From contig DATKMQ010000145.1 in NCBI GenBank assembly GCA_035541755.1, forward strand, positions 1 to 43,674: 43,674 nt of DNA. Direction: 5' to 3'. Under the pieces are notes generated by a model, which saw only the letters and a program-made list of their open reading frames with translations, searched no databases and was not told the DNA's origin. The translations under genes and the position numbers were made by a program. Source of the stretch: Syntrophorhabdaceae bacterium. Lineage in GTDB: Bacteria > Desulfobacterota > Syntrophorhabdia > Syntrophorhabdales > Syntrophorhabdaceae. Below are positions 11,173 to 38,979 of the stretch, piece after piece. Positions within the stretch are counted from its first letter, which is position 1, and each line of letters begins with the position of its first letter.

Positions 11173-11249
11173 TGGTGGGCGATATTGGATTCGAACCAAC
11201 GACCTCTGGTATGTGAGACCAGCGCTCTAACCATCTGAGCTAATCGCCC
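11173..11249 (-). tRNA. tRNA-Val (anticodon CAC)
   Basis: A complete 77-nt cloverleaf on the minus strand. The acceptor stem is GGGCGAT paired with ATCGCCC, the D-arm contains TAGCTCAGATGGTTAGAGC, the anticodon stem CTGGT/ACCAG encloses loop CTCACAT with anticodon CAC (reads GUG), and the T-arm contains GGTTCGAATCC. The 3' CCA is encoded (11173-11175). A TATAAT lies 14 bp upstream (11264-11269 on the opposite strand) and a TTGACT 12 bp further up, a short spacing for a sigma-70 promoter. The gene directly precedes yebC. Confidence 0.96.
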
Positions 11250-38136: not shown

Positions 38137-38166
38137 TTGACTTAGAGTTATGCACTGTGTTACATT
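38137..38166 (+). promoter_or_regulatory. Promoter of the riboswitch-controlled gene
   Basis: A -35 TTGACT (38137-38142), an 18-bp spacer and -10 TACATT (38161-38166). The expected start near 38172 coincides with the beginning of the GEMM-I aptamer, which supports both calls. Confidence 0.5.
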
Positions 38167-38169
38167 CCG

Positions 38170-38278
38170 CACAGTCTGAAAAAAGCCAAACCATCTGCGA
38201 GGATGGGACGGAAAGCCGAGGAGTCTCAAGTTTCAAGCATCATGGGTTGAGGCGTGAGACCGGCCGGGTCGCCAGATA
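38170..38278 (+). promoter_or_regulatory. Cyclic-di-GMP-I (GEMM-I) riboswitch
   Basis: The leader contains the GEMM-I core. The P2 stem is CCATCT (38191-38196) paired with GGATGG (38201-38206) around the GNRA loop GCGA. The invariant GCCAAACC (38185-38192) and GGGACGGAAAGCC (38205-38217) flank it; C38186-C38187 can pair with G38210-G38211. A second stem, GTCTC (38223-38227) with GAGAC (38256-38260), is followed by the receptor-side CGGCCGGGTCGCC. Aligned to the V. cholerae Vc2 RNA, the residue at position 20 is G (38185), the c-di-GMP-type base, not the A of the 3',3'-cGAMP subclass. The Shine-Dalgarno AAGGAGG (38286-38292) lies 8 nt beyond the aptamer with no terminator between, suggesting control at translation. 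Confidence 0.85.
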
Positions 38279-38299
38279 ATCCACCAAGGAGGATACAGC

Positions 38300-38917
38300 A
38301 TGCAGACCCATTTCCGTTATATCAGTTTGGCGCTCCTCGCAGTTCTTCTTCTCGCAACGAGTTCTTACGCCGATGACATACGCTTCACCGCAACCGGCGT
38401 CGGCAATAGCTTAACCGGTTACGTTCAGTACGACTATGCAACATTCAAGGCACAGACCGCCGGCGCATTGCCGTGGAACGCCGTGTTCGCACAGAATTCG
38501 GCTATCACCGGCCTGAGTTTTTCAGACCCAGAGCCGGAGCAGCTCTACGATGGCTCGTACATTTCTACATCCTTTGCGACAAGTGATGTATTTAACAGTC
38601 TGGCTGCCACTCAGAGTGCCCTGGCCTTTGAGACAGACAATCAAGGGAACTACGTAGTCTTCGCAGGTGGAGGATGGCTCGTACAGTACCTCGTACCGAA
38701 TAGCAATATCACACTCACCGGCATGGGCGCAGATGGAGGCCAGGTAACATTCCGTTGGGGAGGCCGTCCGGGCTGGGATCCTTCTGGGCGCTCCTACAAT
38801 GTTACGTGGAGCACCGGGCAGATTATACCGACCGCCACTCCCTTGCCTCCGGGTCTGCTCCTTATGGCTCCCGGTTTCTTAGGCCTTGTGGCTGTGCGGA
38901 GAAGATTCAAGAAATAA
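38300..38917 (+). CDS. Secreted PEP-CTERM-like protein under riboswitch control
   Basis: A 205-residue exported protein of unknown function. It has a signal peptide (1-24, ending SSYA before DDIRF) and a mature domain rich in Gly, Ser, Thr and aromatic residues without catalytic motifs I recognise. The C terminus (about 181-205) is a tripartite sorting signal: PLPPG, a hydrophobic helix LLLMAPGFLGLVAV and a basic RRRFKK end, the variant pattern of PEP-CTERM exosortase substrates. An extracellular matrix or surface role is the usual expectation for such proteins. The AAGGAGG ribosome binding site is 7 nt before the ATG. It is flanked by the GEMM-I riboswitch and a strong terminator, so it is a single-gene regulon member. 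No exosortase gene is in the window. Confidence 0.82.
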   Translation: MQTHFRYISLALLAVLLLATSSYADDIRFTATGVGNSLTGYVQYDYATFKAQTAGALPWNAVFAQNSAITGLSFSDPEPEQLYDGSYISTSFATSDVFNSLAATQSALAFETDNQGNYVVFAGGGWLVQYLVPNSNITLTGMGADGGQVTFRWGGRPGWDPSGRSYNVTWSTGQIIPTATPLPPGLLLMAPGFLGLVAVRRRFKK

Positions 38918-38944
38918 CCTTTATTCGCTAACAATCGCAATCCC

Positions 38945-38979
38945 GGGCAGGACCGTGTGGTCCTGCCCTTTTTCTTTTT
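38945..38979 (+). terminator. Rho-independent terminator
   Basis: GGGCAGGACC (38945-38954) pairs perfectly with GGTCCTGCCC (38959-38968) around GTGT, followed at once by TTTTTCTTTTT. It ends the riboswitch gene transcript 28 bp after the stop. Confidence 0.95.

Follow-up and report, generated by a model that had tools for sequence, protein, structure and literature searches.

The window analysed here, a stretch of 43,674 nucleotides from the genome of a Syntrophorhabdaceae bacterium (assembly GCA_035541755.1, contig DATKMQ010000145.1), contains a gene for a predicted secreted protein whose leader matches the GEMM-I riboswitch aptamer and whose end is marked by an intrinsic terminator (Table 1). 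The genes on either side, one MobA-like and the other coding for a formate/nitrite transporter, both lie on the opposite strand; since the gene also has a strong terminator of its own, it constitutes a single-gene unit, in agreement with a preliminary description of the locus as self-contained and closed by a strong terminator. The fitting promoter that this description placed just upstream is a more mixed case: the site is conserved in a paralogous copy of the unit (L005, see below), but sigma-70-like sites are no more frequent in the scan than chance would have it (one found, 0.8 expected).

Table 1. Features of the riboswitch unit in the window and the box found at related loci.
Feature	Position	Strand	Basis
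Putative sigma-70 promoter, TTGACT-18 nt-TACATT, extended TG	38137-38166	+	Scan; 80% conserved in the L005 cassette
c-di-GMP-I (GEMM-I) aptamer	38175-38276	+	RF01051, 42.1 bits
P2 hairpin, GCGA tetraloop	38191-38206	+	Covariance-model alignment, sequence
Shine-Dalgarno AAGGAGG, probable expression platform (translational)	38286-38292	+	Sequence; 10 nt past the aptamer
205-aa secreted protein (predicted) with exosortase-type C-terminal signal	38300-38917	+	ORF, tail profile
Predicted signal peptide, residues 1-24, ...SSYA/DD	38300-38371	+	Read from sequence
VPLPA-CTERM-like sorting tail, TATPLPPGLLLMAPGFLGLVAVRRRFKK	38828-38914	+	Lineage tail profile; TIGR03370 below cut-off
Intrinsic terminator, 10-bp stem, GUGU loop, T-tract	38945-38978	+	Scan; fold z-score -4.1
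TGTCGTAnnTATCCTACATACAA box upstream of aptamer	L007, L011, L013-L018, L021-L023, L027-L030		Genome G021

Aptamer core and expected ligand

The Rfam covariance model RF01051 matches the leader above its gathering score of 35 bits (E=5.1e-5 for the whole window), and this check, which had been proposed for it, upholds the assignment to class I of the c-di-GMP riboswitches. The only other Rfam match in the window is a tRNA at 11176-11249; the aptamer is its sole riboswitch. The elements of the GEMM-I core named in the preliminary description are all present (the GCGA loop in P2, GCCAAACC, GGGACGGAAAGCC and CGGCCGGGTCGCC), but the core is not that of the Rfam consensus: it reads GCC/GACGG against GGC/GACGC, because pair 21-46 is swapped, with C21-G46 (38186/38211) in place of G21-C46 by a two-sided compensatory change. 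The numbering of this pair follows from the pairing of C22 with G45 in PMC3764141, where the contact positions are G20, A47, A48 and C92.

The bases in contact with the ligand are those of the c-di-GMP type, with G20 at 38185, A47 at 38212 and C92 at 38272. GEMM-Ib riboswitches, which sense cGAMP, carry A at position 20, and G20A mutants bind cGAMP; this mark is absent from the window aptamer. Four GGDEF domains are intact in the genome (GHKVGD, GHLAGD, GHDKGD and GNHFGD); they are canonical, each having Asp at the Hypr selectivity position, where Hypr enzymes making cGAMP have Ser (PMC6456294), and none of the four is of the Hypr type. Contact bases and GGDEF residues taken together, c-di-GMP is the ligand to be expected, and not cGAMP.

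The swapped pair lines the pocket and adjoins the ligand, and it could therefore go with an altered specificity, for 3',3'-cGAMP as in GEMM-Ib or for another ligand. This is very improbable, as position 20, which sets the specificity for G or A, is G, and C92 is retained; as the swap recurs in dozens of genomes, across phyla; as other C21-G46 copies precede targets of many kinds, which is usual for c-di-GMP riboswitches; and as the intact GGDEF domains have Asp rather than Ser throughout. Specificity for cGAMP in particular is rejected on account of G20 and the GGDEF residues, and c-di-GMP stands as the expected ligand.

Sorting tail and exosortase

The protein has the parts that had been read into it, a predicted signal peptide at the one end and, at the other, a proline motif, a hydrophobic segment and clustered basic residues (PLPPG/hydrophobic/RRR), in a form common to unrelated proteins of the genome. 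A low-confidence AlphaFold model (no alignment, pLDDT 36) has an N-terminal hydrophobic helix. Searches of the protein body against Pfam, NCBIfam and the PDB returned nothing significant, and within the family only the C-terminal region has relatives, the body being unique there. The gene further contains an imperfect 23-nt direct repeat (38539-38561 and 38663-38685, 124 nt apart).

A profile made from 16 tails of other genes, the window's own being excluded, gives the tail 44 bits (E=9.4e-11), in support of the sorting tail. The NCBIfam model for VPLPA-CTERM, TIGR03370, gives it 15.5 bits, under the cut-off of 25.35, and the protein has no PEP-CTERM match in Pfam; the tail might on these grounds be taken for an ordinary transmembrane anchor instead of an exosortase signal. 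Such a reading is highly improbable beside the score from a lineage profile built without the window tail, the roughly 20 similarly built tails carried by proteins that are otherwise unrelated, and the XrtD encoded by the same genome. The tail is better read as an exosortase signal, and its cognate enzyme is at hand: XrtD, the VPLPA-CTERM-specific exosortase, is found on contig C25 with 617 bits against a cut-off of 400, which answers the search for an exosortase recommended at the outset. It lies inside an exopolysaccharide cluster, with PrsT, WecA-like, polysaccharide export and chain-length genes alongside.

Sister units and core types

Five GEMM-I matches occur in the genome, two with the canonical core and three, including the window copy, with the swapped one. 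The three swapped copies precede proteins whose C-terminus is made up of a P-x-P-P motif, a hydrophobic segment and clustered basic residues, so that the unit is not the lone one it had been held to be; nor is there a single exosortase-type surface protein, the tail profile having 20 matches in the genome (about 17 with E < 1e-4). The two canonical copies (L001 and L002) lie ahead of secreted proteins in which repeats or fibronectin-like stretches were discerned by eye; the aptamer of L002 is better fitted by the Rfam subfamily c-di-GMP-I-GGC.

One of the swapped copies, L005, is closely akin to the window copy in its regulatory part, with identities of 80% in the promoter, 90% in the aptamer and 75% in the spacer from aptamer to ATG, whereas the upstream flank (59%) and the coding sequence (57%) are at background; the two proteins are alike in their C-terminal part only. 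A block that remains similar while flank and coding sequence do not points to duplication ahead of different genes, and these identities mark the promoter-aptamer-SD block as a duplicated cassette, whose L005 copy precedes a different tailed gene. Directly 3' of the gene controlled by L005, and on the same strand, lies a second tailed gene (G000:C72:9939-10019; L332 2434-3204), which is possibly co-transcribed with it.

Within the family, GEMM-I matches are found in 6 of 39 genomes, and an XrtD-like exosortase (here one scoring at least about 225 bits with PF09721) in 5 of these 6 against 5 of the 33 others (one-sided Fisher p=0.002). In one relative, G021, there are 22 GEMM-I matches; of the 20 whose loci were inspected, at least 13 lie ahead of tailed genes. 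Nearly all its riboswitch aptamers have a repeated box, TGTCGTAnnTATCCTACATACAA, some 30-85 nt to their 5' side, often in two copies; it looks like a transcription-factor site, which would provide a second layer of control, and is not present upstream of the window copy. Two swapped-core copies, L014 in the same relative and L009 in genome G029, lie ahead of small proteins that resemble each other, are about 107-125 aa long and have no sorting tail.

Exact patterns place the swapped core in 65 and the canonical core in 68 of 394 genomes of the phylum; the swapped core is also seen in many phyla. Over all sampled loci, the target is tailed for 19 of 105 swapped-core riboswitches against none of 54 canonical ones (p=4e-4), and outside the family of the window for 10 of 94 against none of 51 (p=0.015), in counts that include repeated copies per genome, ignore kinship and retain some false pattern matches in the swapped set; the tail detector is a heuristic, which flags 54 of 1268 ORFs of at least 150 aa in those same tail-enriched loci. 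The pair is moreover tightly coupled to the P2 loop, which is GAAA in 40 of 55 sampled loci with G21-C46 against 4 of 117 with C21-G46 (Fisher p=4e-22, kinship ignored). This coupling suggests two structural subfamilies of GEMM-I, one with G-C and GAAA and the other with C-G and another GNRA loop; the GCGA loop of the window copy is typical of the latter. It is a tentative extension, and a rather doubtful one, that of two such subfamilies the C21-G46/other-GNRA one has been repeatedly recruited as c-di-GMP control for exosortase substrates, its ligand affinity or ligand preference having perhaps shifted.

Direction of control and relation to known systems

A terminator was sought in the leader of the window copy and none was found upstream of the gene, by which a terminator-based platform is rejected for this copy; with the Shine-Dalgarno sequence following so closely on the aptamer, control is probably translational. 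Energy modelling yields no clear, conserved expression platform for the window copy. In the free state its predicted fold pairs the aptamer core with early codons (-59.3 vs -44.9 kcal/mol), a pairing that L005 does not conserve and that is set aside as the mechanism; when the aptamer is enforced, the fold ensemble shows no clear exposure of the Shine-Dalgarno sequence. The direction of switching is thus taken from the sister copies. In three of these from G021 (L013, L017 and L018) the 3' strand of the aptamer doubles as the 5' arm of an intrinsic terminator; bound ligand should accordingly block termination, and by analogy c-di-GMP would switch the window gene ON. An opposite effect, in which the ligand-bound fold hides the Shine-Dalgarno sequence and c-di-GMP turns the gene OFF, could draw on the predicted pairing of this sequence with a segment of the coding sequence in the enforced fold; it is unlikely, as that pairing is altered once P1 is left unenforced, has no counterpart in L005, and runs counter to the ON geometry of the sister copies with terminators.

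The best explanation of the locus, to which we assign a probability of about 0.8, is a self-contained c-di-GMP-responsive cassette that feeds an exosortase-sorted protein with ON control. The RNA would start from the promoter at about 38137-38166 and have the GEMM-I aptamer as its first element; c-di-GMP, bound through G20, A47 and C92, would close P1 just 5' of the ribosome binding site, most likely permitting the start of translation. The product would be secreted, recognised by XrtD, for which the PLPPG-hydrophobic-RRR tail would serve as the signal, and delivered to the envelope or the exopolysaccharide matrix. As the regulatory module is duplicated before several exosortase substrates, c-di-GMP would raise a subset of matrix proteins together. 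The messenger of the biofilm state would in this way be tied directly, via RNA, to exosortase-sorted proteins that accompany exopolysaccharide. To our knowledge, the regulation of PEP-CTERM proteins is poorly understood; the duplicated promoter-riboswitch cassette, together with the relative rich in riboswitch matches, offers a testable regulon.

With Vc2 of Vibrio cholerae (RF01051) the window aptamer shares the fold, G20, A47, C92 and the architecture of GNRA loop and receptor, but it differs from aptamers of this type in its C21-G46 pair, GCGA loop, extended P3 and lower score. With the GEMM-Ib (3',3'-cGAMP) riboswitches of Geobacter it has the overall fold in common, but G20 where these have A20. 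The XrtD/VPLPA-CTERM system (TIGR04152, TIGR03370) recurs in the exosortase and in the layout of the tail, whose core is PLPPG and not VPLPA and which stays under the TIGR03370 cut-off. In the methylotroph Methylophaga nitratireducenticrescens GP59 (2025), four of seven c-di-GMP riboswitches lie beside PEP-CTERM or VPLPA-CTERM genes (PMC12530212); a search of the literature library found no further paper on this link. The same class of riboswitch thus stands ahead of the same type of exosortase substrate in both, but GP59 belongs to a different group of organisms, its copies are close to EPS genes whereas the loci here are scattered, and the GP59 paper has no variant analysis. The riboswitch-gene unit of the window is a real and essentially ordinary member of known families; to what is known of these it adds the duplicated cassette, the link to XrtD, and the association of tailed targets with the C21-G46/GNRA form.
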